A stretch of DNA of 37,675 nt, taken from positions 1 through 37,675 of the forward strand of contig JADIMU010000017.1 of NCBI GenBank assembly GCA_017694495.1, read 5' to 3'. This document shows positions 18,829-31,074 of this stretch, in pieces. A model generated the notes under the pieces. The model saw nothing but the letters and a program-made list of their open reading frames with translations, was not told the origin of the DNA and did not search any database. Positions within the stretch are counted from its first letter, which is position 1. The number at the start of each line of letters is the position of its first letter. The translations under genes and the position numbers were made by a program. Origin of the DNA: Candidatus Aphodenecus pullistercoris. Its GTDB lineage: Bacteria; Spirochaetota; Spirochaetia; Sphaerochaetales; Sphaerochaetaceae.

Positions 18829-18857
18829 TTGACAAGATGAATGCAAAGTGCAAACAT
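18829..18857 (+). promoter_or_regulatory. Probable promoter of amino-acid binding protein 1
   Basis: TTGACA (18829-18834), a 17-nt spacer and AAACAT (18852-18857) form a promoter with a perfect -35 and weak -10. A TGCA-AAG-TGCA repeat (18842-18852) lies inside the spacer and may be a second half-operator. Confidence 0.45.
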
Positions 18858-18859
18858 GG

Positions 18860-18890
18860 CCCTCGTCACAACAAGTGACGGGGGTTTTCT
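18860..18890 (+). terminator. Hairpin between promoter and start codon of binding protein 1
   Basis: CCCTCGTCAC and GTGACGGGGG form a 10-bp stem (one wobble pair) with an AACAA loop and a TTTTCTT tail that runs into the ATG at 18892. It resembles an intrinsic terminator. Its 3' arm contains the only G-rich Shine-Dalgarno-like sequence (GGGGG, 7 nt before the ATG). It may end the MATE transcript, attenuate the binding-protein gene, or hide its ribosome site; the sequence does not decide among these. Confidence 0.5.
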
Positions 18891-18891
18891 T

Positions 18892-19638
18892 ATGAAGAAG
18901 ATATTCGCATTCACCATTGTCGCTCTCACTGCCATCACGATGGTCTTCGCTGGTGGAGCCAGCGAGGACGATGGAGTCTATACATTCGCAACCGACGCCA
19001 CCTGGCCGCCCTTCGAGTTCATCGACGAGAACGGTACGCTCACCGGCTTCGAGGTCGAGCTCATACCTCTGATCGGCGAGCATGTCGGCGTCACCATGAC
19101 TGTCGAGAACATTCCTTGGGACACGATCTTCGCCGGACTGGCCAACGGCCAGTATGACGGTGTCGCCAGCGGCGTCACGATCACCGACGAGAGGAAGATG
19201 ACCATGGACTTCTCCACTCCGATCGCCAACCAGGGACAGGTCGTCATCGTCATGACCGACTCCTCCGTCCAGAGCGTCGATGACCTCACGGGCCTCAAGG
19301 TCGGCGTCCAGATCGGTACGACCGGCGACTTCGCCCTGGACGACTACGATGTCGACAGGAGACAGTATGATGACATCGGACTGGCCATCCAGGATATGAT
19401 CAACGGCAACATCGACGCCTGCGTCTGCGACAGCCAGATCGCTTCCGACTTCGTCCTTGCCAACGAGAACTACTCCGGCATCCTGCGCATCGCTGGCGAG
19501 CCCTTCACCGACGAGCTGATCGCCATCGCCGTCCAGAAGGGAAACACGGAGCTGCTCGACCTGATCAACCAGGGCCTCGCCGCCATGGAGGAGGACGGTT
19601 CCCTCGCGGCCCTCAAGGCCAAGTGGAACATTCTCTGA
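18892..19638 (+). CDS. Polar amino-acid ABC transporter substrate-binding protein 1
   Basis: This 248-residue family 3 binding protein has a signal peptide (MKKIFAFTIVALTAITMVFA-GG) without a lipobox Cys, so it should be a soluble periplasmic protein. 'YTFATDATWPPFEFIDENG', 'WDTIFAGLANGQYDGVASGVTIT' and 'GLKVGVQIGTTGDFAL' follow the usual order. The ligand is a polar amino acid; an ArgR-like box upstream favours arginine or a related compound (inference). It is a paralogue of the next gene, has its own promoter and terminator, and probably shares the permease and ATPase encoded further down. A hairpin runs up to its start codon. Confidence 0.92.
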   Translation: MKKIFAFTIVALTAITMVFAGGASEDDGVYTFATDATWPPFEFIDENGTLTGFEVELIPLIGEHVGVTMTVENIPWDTIFAGLANGQYDGVASGVTITDERKMTMDFSTPIANQGQVVIVMTDSSVQSVDDLTGLKVGVQIGTTGDFALDDYDVDRRQYDDIGLAIQDMINGNIDACVCDSQIASDFVLANENYSGILRIAGEPFTDELIAIAVQKGNTELLDLINQGLAAMEEDGSLAALKAKWNIL

Positions 19639-19655
19639 TCGGGCTTGCATCAGAG

Positions 19656-19683
19656 ATACCGGGGCCAGCGCCCCGGTATTTTT
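19656..19683 (+). terminator. Terminator of binding protein 1
   Basis: ATACCGGGGC and GCCCCGGTAT form a perfect 10-bp stem with a CAGC loop and a TTTTT tail. It separates the first binding-protein gene from the following operon. Confidence 0.85.
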
Positions 19684-19684
19684 A

Positions 19685-19734
19685 TGCATTGATTATGCAA
19701 AATGCTTGACCTTGATTGCATAAGTTTGCATACT
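19685..19734 (+). promoter_or_regulatory. Promoter with ArgR-like boxes for the amino-acid importer operon
   Basis: TTGACC (19706-19711), a 17-nt spacer and CATACT (19729-19734) form the promoter. Two TGCA palindromes flank or overlap it: TGCA-N7-TGCA at 19685-19699 and TGCA-TAAGTT-TGCA at 19717-19730, the latter matching 16 of 18 positions of the ARG-box consensus. The second box covers the spacer and -10, a typical repressor position. Confidence 0.5.
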
Positions 19735-19765
19735 TGGGCCTATATTCAATCTTTGGGGGTGTAAT

Positions 19766-20515
19766 ATGAAAAAGACTCTGCTCTGCCTCATCTGCCTCGT
19801 GCTGACATCAGCCCTCTTCGCCAACGGTGCCGGAGAGGATGAGGGATACACATTCGCGACCAACGCGAACTGGCCACCACTTGAATATGTTGACGAGAAC
19901 GGCGACATCGTCGGCTTCGAGATCGACCTCATCAATGCGATGAGCGAGGTCAGCGGCGTGCCCATGGACTATGTGAACACGAGCTGGGACACGATCTTCG
20001 CCGGCCTGGCCAACGGCCAGTATGACGCGATCGCCAGCGGCGTCACCGTCACCGAGGAGAGGAAGCTCACAATCGACTTTTCCACGACGATCTACCAGGT
20101 GACCCAGTCCATCCTGACGAAGAAGGAGAACAGCGACCTGTCCACTGTCGAGTCGCTCTTCGGCAAGACTGTCGGCGTACAGATGGGAACGACGGGCCAC
20201 TTCGCCATGGAAGAGTACCCCGAGATCACGATCATGGCCTACGAGGACATCGCGCTGGCCATCCAGGACATGATCAACGGCAACTGCGATGCGGTCGTGT
20301 GTGACAGCGTCATCGCCTCGGACTATGTGCTTGCCAATGAGAACTACAAGGACATGCTCACAGTGACAGGTACGGCCAGCGAGACGGTCGAGGACATCGC
20401 AATCGCCGTCGAGAAGGGAAACACTGAACTCTTGGACATCATCAACTCCTCCATCGAGACGCTGCGCGAGAGCGGCCAGCTCGACGAGTTGTATGCCAAG
20501 TGGAATCTGATTTAG
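19766..20515 (+). CDS. Polar amino-acid ABC transporter substrate-binding protein 2
   Basis: The 249-residue protein is a close paralogue of binding protein 1. It shares 'WDTIFAGLANGQYDAIASGVTVTEERKLTIDFST' and 'IALAIQDMINGNCDAVVCDSVIASDYVLANENY'. It has a cleavable signal peptide ending at LFA-NG and no lipobox Cys. A GGGGGTG Shine-Dalgarno sequence precedes the ATG. It leads an operon with the permease (10 bp downstream) and ATPase, so it is the primary binding protein of that importer. The ligand is probably a polar or basic amino acid; the ArgR-like boxes upstream point to arginine (inference). Confidence 0.93.
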   Translation: MKKTLLCLICLVLTSALFANGAGEDEGYTFATNANWPPLEYVDENGDIVGFEIDLINAMSEVSGVPMDYVNTSWDTIFAGLANGQYDAIASGVTVTEERKLTIDFSTTIYQVTQSILTKKENSDLSTVESLFGKTVGVQMGTTGHFAMEEYPEITIMAYEDIALAIQDMINGNCDAVVCDSVIASDYVLANENYKDMLTVTGTASETVEDIAIAVEKGNTELLDIINSSIETLRESGQLDELYAKWNLI

Positions 20516-20525
20516 GATCTTGAAC

Positions 20526-21389
20526 ATGGAAAAAGAGAAACTGGAAGAGGAGATCAGGACTGAGACCATCAGGAAGAAGGTCCTGAGCGTCGACTCGGCC
20601 GCACTGGCCGCCCAGAAGCCGCAGACCATCACGATGACCGACGGCCCCCTGATCCCGAAGAAGGGCGAGAAGCATGTGCTCTCCGCCTGGAGGGTGACCT
20701 TCATCGGAGCCGTCGTCCTGCTCGCGGGCCTGGTCATCTTCAAGCCCCAGCCCTACAGGCAGATCTTCCTGATCTGCATCGAGGGCGCTCCCGTGACCTT
20801 CGAGGTCACAATCTTCGCCATCATCGGGGCTGTCATAATCGGAACCTTCGCAGGTCTTGGCTCGGTGTCCAGGCACCGCTGGATCAACATGATAAGCGGC
20901 GTCTACGTCGAGCTGATCCGCGGCATCCCCCTCCTGGTCCAGCTGATCTTCATCTACTACGCCCTCGGCCGCTTCCTCCATCTGGAGGGAATGGTCGCGG
21001 CCATCATCGCCCTGTCGGTCTGCTTCGGCGCCTACATGGGCGAGATCATCCGCGCCGGCATCCAGGCCATACCCAAGGGCCAGACGGAAGCCGCGACCGC
21101 CCTGGGCATGTCGTCCAGCCAGACCTTCATCCACATCATCCTCCCGCAGACGGTCAAGGTCGTCCTGCCCGCCATCGGAAACGAGTTCATCTCCATGCTT
21201 AAGGACTCCTCCCTGGTCTCACAGCTGGCGCTCGCCGACATCCTGCGCAAGGGACGAGAGTACATCTCCAGGACCTTCCTCTCCCTTGAGACCATGCTCG
21301 TCGTCGCACTGATCTACCTCATCCTGACCCTGGTCCTCTCCAGACTGGTGGGTATGCTTGAAGAGAGGCTGCACAAGAACAATGGCTAA
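20526..21389 (+). CDS. Polar amino-acid ABC transporter permease
   Basis: The 287-residue inner-membrane protein has the HisM/GlnP-type permease domain. Membrane segments begin near residue 55 and the ATPase-contact loop is '[41 protein letters not shown]'. About 50 charged residues precede the first segment, where most GlnP/HisM proteins start almost at once; this cytoplasmic extension is unexplained. AGGA lies 8 nt before ATG 20526; an in-frame TTG at 20520 is the alternative. The single permease gene implies a homodimer. Its end overlaps the ATPase start by 8 bp. Confidence 0.93.
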
Positions 21390-22125
21390 GATCGAGATAA
21401 AGAACCTCTACAAGGACTACACGGTCGAAGGGCTCAAGACCGTGCATGCCGTCAGGAACGCGAGCCTGACGGTCGACGACGGCGAAGTCGTCGTCATCAT
21501 CGGCCCATCGGGAAGCGGCAAGTCGACATTGCTCAGATGTGTCAACAAGCTCGAGGAGCCGACGAGCGGAAACATCCTGATCGACGGCGTGGACGTCACC
21601 GACCCCGCGACCGACCTCAGGAAGGTCCGCGAGGAGGTTGGCATGGTCTTCCAGTCCTTCAACCTCTTCCCTCACCTCAGCGTCCTGGACAACATCACAC
21701 TGGCTCCACGCAAGGTCCTCAAGATGGACCGCAAGAAGGCAGAGGAGCTTGGAATGGAGCTGCTCGAGCGCGTCGGGCTCGCAGACAAGGCGAAGAACCG
21801 CCCACCCCAGCTTTCAGGTGGCCAGCAGCAGCGCGTCGCAATCGCCCGCTCCCTCGCCATGAAGCCGAAGGCCATGCTCTTCGACGAGCCGACCAGCGCC
21901 CTCGACCCCGAGATGATCAAGGAAGTCCTCGATGTCATGACTGACCTCGCCCACGAGGGCATGACCATGCTCCTCGTGACCCATGAGATGGGCTTCGCCC
22001 GCGCGGCGGCCGACAAGGTCGTCTTCATGGACTCGGGCGAGATCATCGAGATGGCGAGTCCTGAGGAGCTCTTCACGAATCCCAAGTCGCCCAGGACGAA
22101 ATCCTTCCTCGACCACATCCTGTGA
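21382..22125 (+). CDS. glnQ: Polar amino-acid ABC transporter ATP-binding protein
   Basis: The 247-residue ATPase powers the importer encoded just upstream. It has Walker A '[15 protein letters not shown]' (about residues 34-48), the Q-loop '[18 protein letters not shown]', signature '[17 protein letters not shown]', Walker B '[15 protein letters not shown]' and the His in '[27 protein letters not shown]', all typical of the GlnQ/HisP/ArtP branch. The ATG lies inside the end of the permease gene, and the gene converges with the HTH protein gene 6 bp downstream. The symbol reflects the subfamily; arginine transport (artP) is also possible. Confidence 0.94.
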
Positions 22126-23481: not shown

Positions 23482-23510
23482 GCATGGCCACCCGCAGCGG
23501 GTGGCCATGC
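23482..23510. terminator. Bidirectional hairpin between hydrolase and glnN
   Basis: GCATGGCCACCC and GGGTGGCCATGC form a perfect 12-bp stem with a 5-base loop between convergent genes. T-runs are weak on both sides, so it may act mainly as an RNA 3' stabiliser. Confidence 0.55.
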
Positions 23511-25619: not shown

Positions 25620-26189
25620 CTAGCGCCTGTCCTCCAGCTGCCGTCTGATCAGGTCGGCGGCGTCGGCCAGGCCTATCCTTTCATCCATCGCCTTCTTCTC
25701 GATGAAGTGATGGGCCTCCTCCTCGCTCATCTCGAGCCTGAGCGCGAGCAGGCATTTGACCTCGCTGAGCTTCCTCTCCTCCGAGAGTCGCCTCAGCAGT
25801 CGGGCATTCTTGTCCTCAAGTGCCGCCATCCGTCCACGCGCCACCTGGAGCACGGAGATGGTGCGTGTGAACTCCTCGGGGCCGATCAGGCGGCTGACCA
25901 CATAGACCCCGAGCTTGCCGAGCCCAGTGGAGAGGGCCTCCACCTGGCTCGCATTGGCCAGAAGGACGACGTCCAGACTGCTCTGGCTGGACGCCATCGT
26001 GGCCAGTTCCCGTCCTCCACCGTCCACGAGCGGCGGCTGGATGACGACCAGGTTGAAGTCCATGTCGAGGATCATGGCGCGGGCCTGCTGGCAGCTCGAG
26101 GCCTCGCTGACCTCAAGCCCCATGCGGGACAGCAGCGACACGACATCCAGCGTGCGGCTGATGTTTCTTACGACCAGTGCCCTTGCCAT
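25620..26189 (-). CDS. ANTAR-domain RNA-binding regulator with pseudo-receiver
   Basis: ANTAR proteins prevent transcription termination by binding hairpins in leader RNAs. The 189-residue protein has an N-terminal receiver-like domain (about residues 1-115), a coiled-coil linker ('LQVARGRMAALEDKNARLLRRLSEER', about 114-139) and a three-helix ANTAR domain at the C-terminus ('KCLLALRLEMSEEEAHHFIEKKAMDERIGLADAADLI'). The strand that should end in the phosphoacceptor Asp reads 'FNLVVIQPPLVDGGG', so phosphorylation at the usual place is unlikely and another signal may control it. It sits between glnA and glnN. The leaders of glnA, pyrG and asnB all carry ANTAR-like hexaloop hairpins overlapping terminators, so these are its probable targets. 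Confidence 0.85.
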   Translation of the reverse strand: MARALVVRNISRTLDVVSLLSRMGLEVSEASSCQQARAMILDMDFNLVVIQPPLVDGGGRELATMASSQSSLDVVLLANASQVEALSTGLGKLGVYVVSRLIGPEEFTRTISVLQVARGRMAALEDKNARLLRRLSEERKLSEVKCLLALRLEMSEEEAHHFIEKKAMDERIGLADAADLIRRQLEDRR

Positions 26190-26199
26190 GCGACCTCTC

Positions 26200-27504
26200 C
26201 TAGATGTGCTCGAAATAGCGGCGGCGTTCCAGCATGTCCCTGTCGGCGCTGCCGCTGTACTCCACCCACTGCCTCTCCTTCAGGGAGAGGAAGCTGTCGA
26301 GTGTCCTTTCAGGCAGGACTGAGCGCACGAAGGCGCTTGCCCTCGCCTCCTCCACCGCCTCGCCAAGGTTTGTGGGCAGGCCAGAGAGCAGGCTGTGCGC
26401 CTCCTTGCTGTTGGAGTCCTGGTCGTAGGAGGCGCCCAGGACCAGAGACTTCTCCAGTCCTTCCATGCCTGCCGCCAGAAGGAGGCTGAAGGCGAAGTAG
26501 GGATTGCATGCGCAGTCGGGAGAGCGCAGCTCCATGCGGCAGCTCCTGCCCCTGGCGAATGGCAGACGCACCAGGCTTGAACGGTTCTGGCGCGACCAGC
26601 TGACGAGGCTCGGAGCCTCCTTGGCCCCCAGCCTGTCGTATGAGCCGGGCAGCGGGTTGAGGAAGACTGTGATCTCCTTGATGTGCTCGAGGATGCCGGC
26701 CATGAAGGCGCCAGCGCCCTCCTCGAGGTCCTTCGCAAAGAGGTTGTCCCCATTCCTGTGCACCGAGATGTTCACATGCAATCCGCTTCCGCTCTCTTCC
26801 TTGAGCGGTTTGGGAAGGAAGGAGGCGAAGAGTCCGTTCGAAGAGGCGATCGCCTTGACCGCCATCTTGAATGTCAGGTAGTCGTCGGCCGCAGCCAGCG
26901 GTGCGGAGGGAGAGAAGTCTATCTCGTTCTGGCCCGGACCCGACTCGTGGTGGCTGCGCTGGGGGACGATGCCAAGCTCCTCCAGGGCGAAGCAGATGTC
27001 GCGCCTGACGTTCTCGCCCCTGTCCAGTGGAGCAAGGTCGAAGTAGCCGGCCCTGTCGAAGGGGCGCAGCGTCGCTTCCCCCCTCTCGTCCGTCTCGAAA
27101 AGGTAGAACTCGCACTCAGGGCCGATCAGGAAGCTGTATCCTCCCTCGGCGGCACGGGAGACGGCATCGCTGAGGATGCGTCGGCCGTCACCCTCGAAGG
27201 GTCTGCCGTCCGGATAGCTCACCGAGCAGTAGAAACGGGCGACGGAGCGCTGTGCCGGCCTCCAGGGCAGGATGGCGAAGGTGTCGAGGTCGGGATGCAG
27301 CAGGAGGTCCGACTCGTTGACCTTTCCGAAGCCCTCGACCGACGAGGCGTCGAAGGAGACGCCGTACTCGAGCGCATCCTCGAGCTGGTCGGCCATGATC
27401 GCGATGTTCTTCAGGCTTCCGAAGATGTCGCAGAAGCACAGGCGGACGAACTTGACCTCCCAGTCATCCATCAGAGCCTTGACCTCACCCAGCGTCCTCT
27501 TCAT
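26200..27504 (-). CDS. glnA: Type I-like glutamine synthetase
   Basis: The 434-residue protein is a glutamine synthetase of the GSI fold. It has the ammonium-site region 'FDASSVEGFGKVNESDLLLHPDL' (about residues 51-73), 'LIGPECEFYLFET', 'HHESGPGQNEIDFSPSAPL', 'SGSGLHVNISVHRNGDN', 'NRSSLVRLPFARG' and 'RSPDCACNPYFAFSLLLAAGMEG'. The usual HxH of 'GNGMHxH' reads HVN, as I recall in some clostridial-type GS, so it is a divergent branch. It leads the operon with the ANTAR regulator and glnN. Its GGAGG Shine-Dalgarno sequence lies directly after a terminator hairpin in the leader, which suggests control by antitermination. Confidence 0.93.
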   Translation of the reverse strand: MKRTLGEVKALMDDWEVKFVRLCFCDIFGSLKNIAIMADQLEDALEYGVSFDASSVEGFGKVNESDLLLHPDLDTFAILPWRPAQRSVARFYCSVSYPDGRPFEGDGRRILSDAVSRAAEGGYSFLIGPECEFYLFETDERGEATLRPFDRAGYFDLAPLDRGENVRRDICFALEELGIVPQRSHHESGPGQNEIDFSPSAPLAAADDYLTFKMAVKAIASSNGLFASFLPKPLKEESGSGLHVNISVHRNGDNLFAKDLEEGAGAFMAGILEHIKEITVFLNPLPGSYDRLGAKEAPSLVSWSRQNRSSLVRLPFARGRSCRMELRSPDCACNPYFAFSLLLAAGMEGLEKSLVLGASYDQDSNSKEAHSLLSGLPTNLGEAVEEARASAFVRSVLPERTLDSFLSLKERQWVEYSGSADRDMLERRRYFEHI

Positions 27505-27518
27505 CGCAAACCTCCAGG

Positions 27519-27570
27519 AAAAAAGAGAAAGGCGCTGCGGATAGTAGTCCCATCTGCAGCGCCCTTGCCA
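27519..27570 (-). promoter_or_regulatory. glnA leader: ANTAR-like hexaloop hairpin overlapping a terminator
   Basis: In the minus-strand RNA, UGGC-AAGGGC-GCUG (27570-27557) can form a 4-bp stem (two wobble pairs) with a hexaloop having A1 and G4. The alternative is an 8-bp terminator stem, GGCGCUGC (27563-27556) with GCAGCGCC (27538-27531), followed by UUUCUCUUUUUU. The two structures share bases 27557-27563 and exclude each other. The Shine-Dalgarno sequence follows immediately. The hexaloop stem is the weakest of the three in this window. Confidence 0.6.
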
Positions 27571-27581
27571 ATATGGTGCAC

Positions 27582-27610
27582 ATTCTTTCCAGCTCGCTCC
27601 ACTTTGTCAA
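27582..27610 (-). promoter_or_regulatory. Promoter of the glnA operon
   Basis: On the minus strand a perfect TTGACA (27610-27605), a 17-nt spacer and AAGAAT (27587-27582) predict transcription from about 27575, only a few bases before the hexaloop hairpin. Confidence 0.6.
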
Positions 27611-27658
27611 GGGCTGAAGAAGGCTTGTGGAAAAAAGCGCACCCGAGGGCATGTGACG

Positions 27659-29263
27659 TCATTTCCCCATCCCTGCCGCGCGCACGAAGGCGTCGAAGAG
27701 CGGATGGACCTTGTTAGGCCGGCTCTTGAACTCGGGATGGAACTGGACGGCGACGAAGAAGCGGGATGAAGGGATCTCCATGGCCTCGACGAGCTTGCCG
27801 TCCGGACTGCTGCCGCTGAAGACGATGCCCGCCGCCTCAAGCCGCCCTCTGAAGATGGGAGAGACCTCGTAGCGGTGCCTGTGGCGCTCCTGGATGAGGT
27901 CGCAGCCGTAGATCTCGTGCAACATCGTGCCCTGCTCTATGCGACATGGATAGGAGCCCAGACGCATCGTTCCGCCCTTGCTCACGACGTTGCGCTGTCC
28001 GTCCATCAGGTCGATGACGCACTCGCTTCCTTCCTCGTCGAACTCCCTGGAGTTGGCCTTCTCAAGTCCGGCAAGGTCCCTCGCCGCCTCGATCACTGCA
28101 ATCTGCATGCCCAGACAGATGCCGAAATATGGTATGCCTGTCTCGCGCGCATAGCGTGCCGCGGCAACCATGCCCTCTATGCCTCGGCTGCCGAAGCCTC
28201 CAGGCACCAGGATGCCATCGACGTCCCCAAGCAGCTTCTCTGGCCCCTCCTCCTCTATCTGCTCGCAGTCGACGAAGCGCAGGTCCAGCTCGTAGGAATT
28301 GTGGCCTGCGGCATGAAAGAGCGCCTCGTTGATCGAGATGTAGGCATCGTGGAGTTTCACATACTTGCCGCAGATGGCTATCGTGACCCGGCCCCTCTTC
28401 GGCCCCTTCATCAGGCGGACGGCCTCGCTCCAGCCAGTCAGGTCGCACGGCCCCGCCTCAAGACCAAGACGGGAGACGACGTAATCGTCGAAACCCCTGT
28501 CATGCAAGAGCATAGGTATTTCGTAAAGTGGACTTACATTCTCATTCGCGATGACGGCCCGCCTCTCGACGTTGCAGAAGTGGGCAAGCTTGTCCAGAAG
28601 GCTGTCCTCAAGCAGACGGTCGCTGCGCGCGATCACGCAGTCGGGCATGATGCCCATGCCCTGCAGCTCGTGGACGGAGTGCTGTGCAGGCTTGGTCTTG
28701 TACTCTCCCGAACACGAGAGGTAGGGAACAAGGACGACGTGGATGAACATCGAGTTCTGGATGCCGACCTCGCTGCGCAGCTGCCTGACAGCTTCAAGGA
28801 AGGGCTGGCTCTCGATGTCTCCGATCGTGCCTCCGATCTCGGTGATGACGACATCAGCCTTCGTAAAGTCCCCCAAGGCCCTGATGTAGGATTTGATCTC
28901 GTCGGTGACATGGGGAATGATCTGGACCGTCTTGCCCAGGTACTCGCCCCTCCTCTCGCGCGTCAGGATGTTCCAGTAGACACGGCCGCTTGTGAGGTTG
29001 CTCATCCGGTTCAGGTCCTCGTCGATGAACCTCTCGTAATGGCCGAGGTCCAGATCCGTCTCGGCGCCGTCCTCGGTGACATAGACCTCTCCATGCTGGT
29101 AGGGGCTCATCGTCCCAGGATCGACGTTCAGATAAGGGTCGAGCTTCTGGGCCGCAACCTTGAGTCCACGCTGTTTGAGCAGCAGCCCCAGACTGGCGGC
29201 GCTCACACCCTTGCCCAGTCCCGAGACGACTCCTCCCGTGACGAAAATGTACTTTCTTTCCAT
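27659..29263 (-). CDS. pyrG: CTP synthase (glutamine-hydrolysing)
   Basis: PyrG makes CTP from UTP using ATP and the amide nitrogen of glutamine. From ATG 29263 the protein has 534 residues, the usual length. The synthetase domain (about 1-265) begins '[22 protein letters not shown]' and has '[19 protein letters not shown]'. The class I glutaminase domain (about 290-530) has the nucleophile Cys in '[16 protein letters not shown]' and the His-Glu pair in '[11 protein letters not shown]'. AGGAGG lies 5 nt before the ATG, directly after a leader terminator. It is divergent from asnB, and both leaders carry the same hexaloop element. Confidence 0.97.
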
Positions 29264-29276
29264 GCCATCCTCCTGA

Positions 29277-29323
29277 AAAGAGGAAAGGACGCCCACCCTT
29301 GTTCAGAGTGGACGTCCTTGTCC
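29277..29323 (-). promoter_or_regulatory. pyrG leader: ANTAR-like hexaloop hairpin overlapping a terminator
   Basis: In the minus-strand RNA GGAC-AAGGAC-GUCC (29323-29310) forms a perfect 4-bp stem with a hexaloop having A1 and G4. The competing terminator pairs GGACGUCCAC (29317-29308) with GUGGGCGUCC (29296-29287), 10 bp with one wobble, followed by UUUCCUCUUUU. They share bases and exclude each other. I do not see a G-run at the 5' end of the transcript, which argues against the reiterative-initiation control known for pyrG in Bacillus. Confidence 0.65.
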
Positions 29324-29332
29324 ATGGGCAGT

Positions 29333-29362
29333 GTCATAGCATCGGCAAGCGGAAAGTGTCAA
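29333..29362 (-). promoter_or_regulatory. Promoter of pyrG
   Basis: On the minus strand TTGACA (29362-29357), an 18-nt spacer and TATGAC (29338-29333) predict a start near 29326, 2-3 nt before the hexaloop hairpin. A 17-nt spacer with CTATGA is the alternative. Confidence 0.55.
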
Positions 29363-29369
29363 CGCCCTC

Positions 29370-29398
29370 TTTTCACAATCGCCGCTTTGCGCTATCTT
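29370..29398 (+). promoter_or_regulatory. Probable promoter of asnB
   Basis: TTTTCA (29370-29375), a 17-nt spacer and TATCTT (29393-29398) predict a start near 29405. Its -35 lies only 7 bp from the -35 of the divergent pyrG promoter, so one bound factor could affect both. Confidence 0.4.
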
Positions 29399-29414
29399 TT
29401 GCCATCCGAATTCG

Positions 29415-29469
29415 GGACAAGGATGTCCAGAAGGGAAGAGTCGTCTTCTCGTCTGGACATCCTTTTTTT
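29415..29469 (+). promoter_or_regulatory. asnB leader: ANTAR-like hexaloop hairpin overlapping a terminator
   Basis: GGAC-AAGGAU-GUCC (29415-29428) forms a perfect 4-bp stem with a hexaloop having A1 and G4. The competing terminator pairs GGATGTCCAGA (29421-29431) with TCTGGACATCC (29452-29462), 11 perfect pairs with an inner GAAGA/TCTTC stem, and ends in seven T. The element is followed by GGGAGG and the asnB ATG at 29488. A short CCG-AATT-CGG hairpin lies just upstream but lacks the A1/G4 loop. Confidence 0.7.
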
Positions 29470-29487
29470 CTTTCTGGGAGGTGCATC

Positions 29488-31074
29488 ATGTGTACGGTAT
29501 TCGCATACAGCGGCAGAAGGCTCGACGAGATGGGCGTCCTGGCCCGCCTCGAGCTCACGAAGAGGCGTGGTCCAGACGGCCAGAGGGTGCTGGCCCTGCC
29601 TGAAGGCGGCTTCCTCGCCTTCCAGCGCCTTTCAATAATGGGTCTGGACGAAAGCGGCATGCAGCCCTTCACATCACAGGGTGTCTCGAGCGTCACGAAC
29701 GGAGAGCTCTACGGCTTCAGACCACTCAGGTCCCTGCTCATGGCCAAGGGCTACAGCTTCAAAAGCGGAAGCGACTGCGAGCTCGTCAACCCGATGTACC
29801 GCGAGTACGGCACAGCCATGTTCGCACTGCTCGACGCCGAGTTCGCGACCGTCATCCACGACCCTGACAAGGGACTCGTCGCCGCACGCGATCCGATCGG
29901 CATCCGCCCCCTCTTCTACGGCTATGATGAGGATGGAGAGATAGCCTTCGCAAGCGAGGCGAGACTGCTGAAGGGTCTATGCACCCGCGTCATCCCATTC
30001 CCTCCCGGACACTGGTACGCACAGGGGGAGTTCCACTGCTACAACAGGATCTGGCACGCCGACAAGGTCTGTGCCGACAGCCAGGAGCAGGCCTTGCACA
30101 AGATCAGGCAGCTCCTGATCCGCGCCGTCGAGAAGCGGCTCGACAGCGACGCTCCACTCGGATTCCTCCTATCGGGCGGACTGGACAGCTCCCTCGTATG
30201 CTCCATAGCCACCCGCCTGATGGGCCGCCCGGTACGCACCTTCGCCATAGGCATGGACAAGGACCCGATCGACGCGAAATACGCCCAGATCGTCAGCGAC
30301 CACATAGGAAGCGAGCATACGCTCGTGAGCATGAGCATGGACGAAGTCCTCTCGGCCCTTGATGGAGTCATCGAGGACCTGGCGACCTGGGACATAACGA
30401 CGATAAGGGCATCGCTGGGCATGCATCTGCTGTGCAAGTGGATCCACGAGCACACTGATGTGCGCGTCCTGCTTACGGGAGAAGTCTCCGACGAGCTCTT
30501 CGGCTACAAATACACGGACTACGCACCATCCCCGCGCGCCTTCCAGGAAGAGAGCGAGAAGAGGGTGCGTGAGCTCTACGCCTACGATGTGCTCAGGGCC
30601 GACAGGTGCATCGCGGACAACTCGATCGAGGCCCGTGTCCCCTTCTCAGACCTCGACTTCGCCTCCTACATCATCTCGCTCCAGCCGGAGATGAAGATGA
30701 ACAGGACCGGCATGGGCAAGTACCTTCTGAGGAAGGCCTTCGAGGACGATGACTGGCTTCCGGACTCGATCCTCTACAGGCAGAAGGCGGCCTTCAGCGA
30801 TGCTGTAGGGCACAGCATGGTCGACCACCTCAAGGCCTACGCCGAGGACCACTTCCGTGGTCAGGACTGGAAGTCGATGTGCATGGAATACCCAAGACAT
30901 GGACGGCCCTTCACTCCCGAGTCGCTGCTCTACCGCCAGATCTTCGAGCGCCACTACCCTGGCATGGCAAGCATGATACCCGACTTCTGGATGCCGAACC
31001 GGGACTGGGAAGGCTGCCAGGTCAGCGACCCATCTGCGAGGGTTCTGGCGAACTACGGCGACAGCGGAAAGTGA
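29488..31074 (+). CDS. asnB: Asparagine synthase (glutamine-hydrolysing)
   Basis: AsnB transfers the amide nitrogen of glutamine to aspartate. The 528-residue protein starts 'MCTVFAYSGR', exposing Cys2 as the class II glutaminase nucleophile, with 'KRRGPDGQRVLA' and 'TNGELYGF' in the glutaminase half (about residues 1-190). The synthetase half has the PP-loop 'GFLLSGGLDSSLVCSIA' (about 225-241) and 'LLTGEVSDELFGYKYT'. The GGGAGG Shine-Dalgarno sequence sits 6 nt before ATG 29488; the frame extends further upstream only through the leader. Its leader has a hexaloop hairpin and terminator like those of pyrG and glnA. Confidence 0.95.
   Translation: MCTVFAYSGRRLDEMGVLARLELTKRRGPDGQRVLALPEGGFLAFQRLSIMGLDESGMQPFTSQGVSSVTNGELYGFRPLRSLLMAKGYSFKSGSDCELVNPMYREYGTAMFALLDAEFATVIHDPDKGLVAARDPIGIRPLFYGYDEDGEIAFASEARLLKGLCTRVIPFPPGHWYAQGEFHCYNRIWHADKVCADSQEQALHKIRQLLIRAVEKRLDSDAPLGFLLSGGLDSSLVCSIATRLMGRPVRTFAIGMDKDPIDAKYAQIVSDHIGSEHTLVSMSMDEVLSALDGVIEDLATWDITTIRASLGMHLLCKWIHEHTDVRVLLTGEVSDELFGYKYTDYAPSPRAFQEESEKRVRELYAYDVLRADRCIADNSIEARVPFSDLDFASYIISLQPEMKMNRTGMGKYLLRKAFEDDDWLPDSILYRQKAAFSDAVGHSMVDHLKAYAEDHFRGQDWKSMCMEYPRHGRPFTPESLLYRQIFERHYPGMASMIPDFWMPNRDWEGCQVSDPSARVLANYGDSGK

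Follow-up and report, generated by a model that had tools for sequence, protein, structure and literature searches.

Described ANTAR antiterminators act through two hexaloops in the leader RNA (PMC3369931; PMC8934654). In the case of EutV, phosphorylation by EutW is reported to be needed, and the EutV targets likewise have two hexaloops (PMC3369931; PMC8934654). According to PMC8934654, EutV touches one hexaloop at a time, with K149, E160, and Y164 contacting G4 of the loop, yet during transcription it needs the two of them; the first is argued there to be a recruitment hairpin, and further work on single-hexaloop targets is called for. For NasR, binding to the single P2 hairpin has been described as having poorer affinity, about 12 uM, and the same source presents ANTAR proteins with a pseudo-receiver as a prevalent subclass, with AmiR, whose targets are described as two-hairpin, as an example (PMC7496416).

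ANTAR proteins have also been placed close to nitrogen metabolism. In Clostridia, ANTAR genes are described beside glutamine synthetase (GS) and GOGAT genes, including NitR/glnA and Clo1313_2030 in the GS-GOGAT cluster of C. thermocellum (PMC4676874), and Ramesh et al. (2012) reported terminator-overlapping ANTAR motifs before genes for glutamate/glutamine synthase and ammonium transporters (PMC3369931). Our literature search, with subscription journals mostly outside its coverage, yielded no report of a spirochaetal ANTAR regulon.

Here we describe such a locus in the window, i.e., the whole stretch of DNA analysed (37,675 nt, contig JADIMU010000017.1 of Candidatus Aphodenecus pullistercoris). 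As the original prediction had stated, an ANTAR gene lies between the genes for two classes of GS, glnA (GSI) and glnN (GSIII), all on the (-) strand. That prediction missed the RNA side, where hexaloops that overlap terminators together mark out a regulon; the window holds three of these elements. We observed an ANTAR domain, a degenerate receiver, a covarying RNA element placed between promoter and terminator, a consistent gene set, and co-occurrence of the element with the ANTAR gene, and we regard it as probable that glutamine metabolism is governed here by single-hexaloop antitermination, through an ANTAR protein that acts independently of phosphorylation and has a regulon of its own.

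The ANTAR Protein and Its Degenerate Receiver

The 189-residue protein, which includes LVVIQPPLVDGGG, provides the sole PF03861 (ANTAR) match of the 2.07-Mb genome (33 bits against a Pfam cutoff of 27.3, residues 130-180), and its Response_reg score of 16.7 bits falls below the cutoff of 30.2. EutV, Rv1626, and AmiR are the nearest solved proteins by sequence; the predicted structure, which is of moderate reliability (mean pLDDT 74, from an alignment of n = 2 sequences), matches EutV with RNA (6ww6) best, and also EutV, AmiR (1qo0), and Rv1626. The EutV residues that contact G4 align with K145, E156, and H160, respectively, so that His replaces the EutV Tyr, and these positions are kept among the relatives (Lys in 85/85, Glu in 85/85, His in 84/85). 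Domain, contact residues, and loop place the protein in the ANTAR family, its architecture places it in the pseudo-receiver subclass, and judging from its sequence it most likely binds RNA.

The phosphoacceptor Asp, predicted from the outset to be missing from the receiver, is indeed absent. With the family motif (N/D)-x-P-L-P-D-E-x-G as the anchor of the alignment, Gln51, at the end of predicted strand 3 (residues 47-51), occupies the Asp site; in a phmmer alignment the EutV Asp falls opposite Val49, which is likewise not an Asp. A shifted Asp at the phosphosite was ruled out, as the nearest, Asp56, lies five residues past Gln51 in a loop. The loss is real, but describing it as the loss of Asp is too narrow, because the acid pair is replaced by Arg8/Asn9, the Thr by Ala78, and the Lys by Arg100.

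We surveyed 86 ANTAR proteins (relatives and the window protein), 85 of which could be scored at most positions. An acid is present in 0/85 at the first acid position and in 23/85 at the second, and no protein in this survey has acids at both; Thr or Ser occupies the Thr/Ser position in 5/85, and the Lys is retained in 54. The Asp site itself carries Asn in 43/85, Asp in 31/85, and Glu in 6. A pseudo-receiver thus characterises the whole family, and Gln51 is one of its local forms, the site being mostly Asn or Asp in the relatives. Since no relative keeps the acid pair, classical phosphorylation of the receiver, already doubted for the window protein, is very unlikely for the whole family. No histidine kinase gene is nearby, as had been noted, none of the 15 HATPase_c matches of the genome being on the contig of the window. 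A kinase encoded at an unlinked locus might still act on those family members that bear Asp, an idea for which the 31 Asp and 54 Lys residues speak, but which has only a slight chance of being correct given the Gln in the window protein, the fact that no surveyed protein is acidic at both Mg positions, and a contig without a kinase.

The Gene Neighbourhood

The three genes of the operon lie on one strand with gaps of 10 nt (glnA-ANTAR) and 9 nt (ANTAR-glnN); coordinates of all features are collected in Table 1. Within a set of 61 genomes (own and relatives), 22 matched the ANTAR protein, of which 20 were counted as ANTAR proteins. Across 86 ANTAR loci, a GSI gene is directly upstream of the ANTAR gene in 81 (77 by search and four more by inspection); of the remaining five, L027, L043, and L207 are at contig ends, and L040 and L041 lack a GSI gene in this position. 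The downstream gene is pyrG in 37 loci, glnN in 34, asnB in two, and an ABC ATPase in one, and in 12 it matches none of the query proteins. Of the order glnA-ANTAR-glnN, the first part is conserved (81/86) and glnN is not (34/86, with pyrG in 37); as GSI is constant upstream and the downstream gene varies, the conserved unit is the glnA-ANTAR pair.

An amino-acid ABC transporter (two family-3 binding proteins, a permease, and an ATPase; 18841-22125) is encoded near the glutamine operon, and no hexaloop element was found upstream of these genes. In the GSI of the window and its relatives, Asn, Gln, Asp, or Lys stands where the motif of solved GSI proteins has Arg, and clade-A GSI proteins end in a conserved Y-F/L-x-x-I/V-like tail.

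Table 1. Features of the window considered in this study.
Feature	Coordinates	Strand	Description or basis
ANTAR regulator gene	25620..26189	(-)	189 aa; ORF, Pfam, predicted structure
Parts of the ANTAR regulator			degenerate receiver, residues about 1-100; long helix, 100-152; ANTAR domain, 130-180
ANTAR RNA-binding domain	25650..25802	(-)	Pfam place, EutV alignment
glnA, type I (alpha-like) glutamine synthetase, 434 aa	26200..27504	(-)	first gene of operon
glnN, type III glutamine synthetase, 691 aa	23535..25610	(-)	last gene of operon
Terminator-like hairpin downstream of glnN	23482..23510	(-)	terminator scan
pyrG, CTP synthase (glutamine-dependent)	27659..29263	(-)	proposed regulon member
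asnB-type asparagine synthase (glutamine-dependent)	29488..31074	(+)	proposed regulon member
glnA promoter-like site TTGACA-17-AAGAAT	27582..27610	(-)	promoter scan
glnA single hexaloop hairpin GGC-AAGGGC-GCU	27558..27569	(-)	leader reading, R2 model
glnA leader intrinsic terminator and U tract	27519..27566	(-)	-27 kcal/mol
pyrG single hexaloop hairpin GAC-AAGGAC-GUC	29311..29322	(-)	R2; TTGACA at 29362-29357
pyrG leader intrinsic terminator	29279..29319	(-)	scan, R2, folding; pyrG ATG at 29263
asnB single hexaloop hairpin GAC-AAGGAU-GUC, one extra G-C pair	29416..29427	(+)	R2, folding
asnB leader intrinsic terminator and U tract	29419..29469	(+)	R2, folding; asnB ATG at 29488

Leader RNA Elements in the Genome

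The elements before glnA, pyrG, and asnB all lie inside 2 kb of the window, and in the glnA leader the terminator's 5' arm takes in both the loop and the 3' side of the hexaloop hairpin, so that the two structures overlap. A promoter/terminator scan picked up the promoter of glnA and, for pyrG, the leader terminator, whereas that of glnA escaped it. With the R2 model (see below), the genome gives five matches at E < 0.01 at four places, namely glnA (27522-27581, (-)), asnB (29404-29470, (+)), pyrG (29279-29334, (-)), and gltB, the last being on contig C8 and matched on both strands of one terminator. This gltB gene was recognised by its translated start, and its element has an A-C mismatch at the middle stem pair.

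The three window terminators have folding energies of -27.4, -26.7, and -32.3 kcal/mol, and the isolated hexaloop hairpins -1.3, -1.5, and -6.1 kcal/mol, i.e., they are weak in two of three leaders. With weak hairpins set against strong terminators, the terminator would be the default structure, and binding would have to act during RNA synthesis and win kinetically.

The divergent asnB and pyrG genes, with an element on each side (29260-29490; also in L031 and L073), form a compact two-way control region. A glutamine riboswitch was considered and rejected, as no Rfam match up to E = 1 occurs within 27440-29560.

A Covarying Hexaloop Family

Nine readable clade-A glnA leaders, several of them near-identical, all carry [A/G]GC-AA[A/G/U]G[G/A]C-GCU just before the terminator 5' arm. 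Their hexaloops share A1 and G4 and match the ANTAR consensus AGCAANGRRGCUY given for eut leaders (PMC3369931). In clade B, where GSI follows the GOGAT genes, the same loop is found on a GAC/GUC stem before a GOGAT gene and, in L049, on a CAC/GUG stem before amtB. A first model, R1, was built from 13 elements and encodes only the terminator as structure, not the hexaloop stem; the first five clade-B seeds were chosen with a hairpin filter, which biases the first alignment and not the later matches, so that the latter are a fair test of the stem. Among 19 inspected R1 matches, 18 pair at 3/3 stem positions (one, L071, being a seed again, and another, L081, having no gene after it), and the failing one, L076, is chance-like.

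R1 found elements before glnN, gltB, amtB, asnB, and pyrG in relatives, the downstream genes being named from protein starts and similarity to window proteins, with no family scan per gene. It missed the asnB and pyrG elements of the window, both of which were recovered by R2, a model of 38 elements. The 52 R1 matches, less nine antisense duplicates and with the window asnB element added, give 44 elements, and 43 after removal of the L045 match. The 38-element alignment, A6, further leaves out the near-duplicates or close relatives L030 glnA, L068 +, L070 -, and L028 -, together with L081, which has no downstream gene; the pyrG and gltB elements of the window's own genome are outside both the 43- and the 38-element counts. 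Matches set aside as chance are L076, L045:11165, L216-L221, and L233.

In the 38 elements, all 114 of 114 stem cells hold standard pairs, of types AU, GC, GU, CG, and UA. Stem covariation is 0.693, compared with 0.326 +/- 0.040 after shuffling (0/500 shuffles as high), and slid versions of the stem reach at most 0.135 in the same 38 elements. A1 and G4 are present in the loop of 41 of the 43 elements, and the inspected elements overlap intrinsic terminators.

Two further arrangements were seen in relatives. In genome G032 (L049, 7310-7476), two tandem elements on CAC/GUG and AUC/GAU stems, each with its own terminator, precede amtB, and in L080 and L227 the element is followed by a gene for an apparent BMP-type binding protein, which does not belong to the obvious nitrogen set.

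A Single Hexaloop at the Predicted Transcript Start

In 34/43 elements a TTGACA box (at least 5/6 matching) precedes the hairpin by 38-49 nt, compared with 6.5% in shuffled sequence, and a -10 match (at least 4/6) follows 16-18 nt after the -35 in 31/36, where 7.5 are expected. From the -10 position, the predicted start is 0-16 nt before the hairpin, and it is <12 nt before the hairpin in 33/36, so that the hairpin would begin at about +1 to +10. A hidden first hairpin was sought and rejected, since an upstream A--G-- hexaloop within 60 nt occurs in 4/43 elements compared with 3.2 expected, i.e., at chance level. In this the 43 elements depart from known ANTAR targets, which feature tandem P1 and P2 hexaloop hairpins. 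On the predicted starts, the leaders carry one hexaloop, and the first hairpin of the two-hairpin ANTAR targets is missing; these leaders are under the same time constraint as known ANTAR targets and have one hexaloop.

The elements are strong terminators, and R2 also matches chance terminators in ANTAR-negative genomes (L216-L221, L233), from which one might argue that they are ordinary terminators of the upstream genes with a hexaloop by chance. This is extremely improbable in view of the upstream promoter matches (34/43 and 31/36), the stem covariation, the gene set, and the co-occurrence with ANTAR.

Co-occurrence of the Element and the ANTAR Gene

Among 139 genomes of the window's family, 84 have both the RNA element and the ANTAR gene, 2 ANTAR only, 6 RNA only, and 47 neither (66, 2, 5, and 47 without the genomes that seeded the model), where a genome counts as ANTAR-positive at E ≤ 1e-15, and weaker matches (mostly proteins of about 460 aa) were set aside. 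The corresponding numbers for 394 genomes of the class, a sample that overlaps the family sample and to which stricter filters were applied, are 93, 11, 10, and 280; beyond the family of the window, both occur in 32 genomes, ANTAR only in 9, and RNA only in 8. Fisher tests on these counts treat as independent genomes that are related. In another family, elements precede gltD-like and asnB genes (nine loci inspected).

No PF03861 match was found in the six RNA-only family genomes. Five of them (G130, G138, G107, G115, and G010), and not G028, have convincing elements, and G130, G138, G107, and G010 are fragmentary or less complete. G115, which is 95% complete in 10 contigs and has convincing elements (L215, L229, L238; amtB and a binding-protein gene), is a real puzzle against the model, its regulator having diverged or been lost. 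Conversely, the ANTAR gene is present in G068 and G069, where even lax settings revealed no element; as GSI stands behind another gene in both, the leader may lie out of reach.

Proposed Antitermination Circuit

The target of the ANTAR protein would be one hexaloop hairpin at the extreme 5' end of the leaders of glutamine genes. Without active ANTAR protein, the leader would fold as a terminator and transcription would halt before the gene. Binding of the ANTAR protein to the hexaloop emerging from the polymerase would hold the terminator's 5' arm, and transcription would go on. Besides gltB, which lies elsewhere in the genome, the regulon would comprise glnA-ANTAR-glnN, pyrG, and asnB, all in the window, and in relatives additionally glnN alone, amtB, and asnB. 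The ANTAR gene, lying behind its own attenuator, would be autoregulated.

Judging from the leaders and the genes that they precede, antitermination is the likely direction, with a shortage of nitrogen or glutamine as the activating condition: the presence of GS, GOGAT, and AmtB in one set suggests shortage of glutamine or ammonium as the trigger, and AsnB and PyrG, which consume glutamine, would also fit a glutamine-related signal. Standing against the circuit are the stem mismatch of the genome's own gltB element, the G115 elements without PF03861, and the ANTAR genes of G068 and G069 without an element.

What Sets ANTAR Activity

AmiC holds AmiR, and in Bacillus feedback-inhibited GS controls TnrA and GlnR. 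By analogy, our leading guess, offered tentatively, is that the signal comes from a protein partner, with GSI as the first candidate, in the manner of AmiC and AmiR. GSI would then be the sensor, and its glutamine-loaded or otherwise inactive form might bind the pseudo-receiver and keep the ANTAR protein off the RNA, a possibility short of an even chance. The constant GSI gene upstream of ANTAR next to a variable downstream gene is in keeping with such a role, as is the finding that the position equated with Bacillus Arg62, which we take to be the feedback Arg, is Arg in 1 of 76 motif-bearing GSI proteins (80 proteins in all), so that the control of GSI may have changed. In addition, GSI is the more rapidly diverging of the two synthetases when compared over the same loci (mean distance 0.30 vs 0.22 for GSIII). 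However, the distance correlation with ANTAR is not GSI-specific (partial r of 0.35 for GSI and 0.42 for GSIII), L040 and L041 have an ANTAR gene without adjacent GSI, and adjacency may reflect shared regulation only.

Direct signalling by a small molecule, glutamine or 2-oxoglutarate, bound to the receiver would account for a domain that is kept in the relatives examined in spite of its degenerate phosphosite; we consider it unlikely, as the whole protein diverges fast (mean distance among relatives 0.53) and the invariant columns of the family lie mainly in the ANTAR domain. Similarly improbable is a vestigial receiver on a constitutively active ANTAR protein that is autoregulated by its own attenuator only: the lost active site, the contig without a kinase, and the autogenous arrangement suit it, but the receiver is full length in most relatives (matches over positions 1-188).

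Returning to GSI as the partner, the most far-reaching form of the proposal would be that a large part of the spirochaete class controls glutamine metabolism by one-hexaloop antitermination, with a phosphorylation-blind ANTAR protein set by the adjacent GS as nitrogen sensor, a hairpin at the first nucleotides, and a terminator beaten without a recruitment hairpin. In this full form it is rather doubtful.

Comparison with Known Systems and Significance

If the proposed circuit is correct, a nitrogen regulator and its regulon (GS, GOGAT, AmtB, AsnB, and PyrG) would be assigned to spirochaetes. The natural leaders described here have one hexaloop on a terminator and a sensible gene set, and therefore make the need for a second hexaloop directly testable.

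Among described systems, NitR of Clostridium, which is reported to be coupled with an antisense RNA (PMC4676874), resembles the window gene in its gene context. The search of Ramesh et al. (2012) used a dual-hairpin model, unlike the single-hexaloop models used here, and the main text of that paper does not mention spirochaetes (PMC3369931). AmiR resembles the window protein in having a pseudo-receiver fused to ANTAR and differs in its partner AmiC, since the operon here has no AmiC-like gene and its constant neighbour is GSI; the present protein would, after AmiR, be another degenerate receiver taking its signal from something other than phosphate. EutV/EutW of the Enterococcus faecalis eut operons share with this locus the ANTAR domain, the terminator-overlapping A1/G4 hexaloop, and the G4-contact residues, whereas they rely on phosphorylation by EutW and on two hexaloops, and here there is no phosphosite and one hexaloop. 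Overall, the spirochaete leaders would represent a simpler version of a switch that has been thought to need two hairpins.
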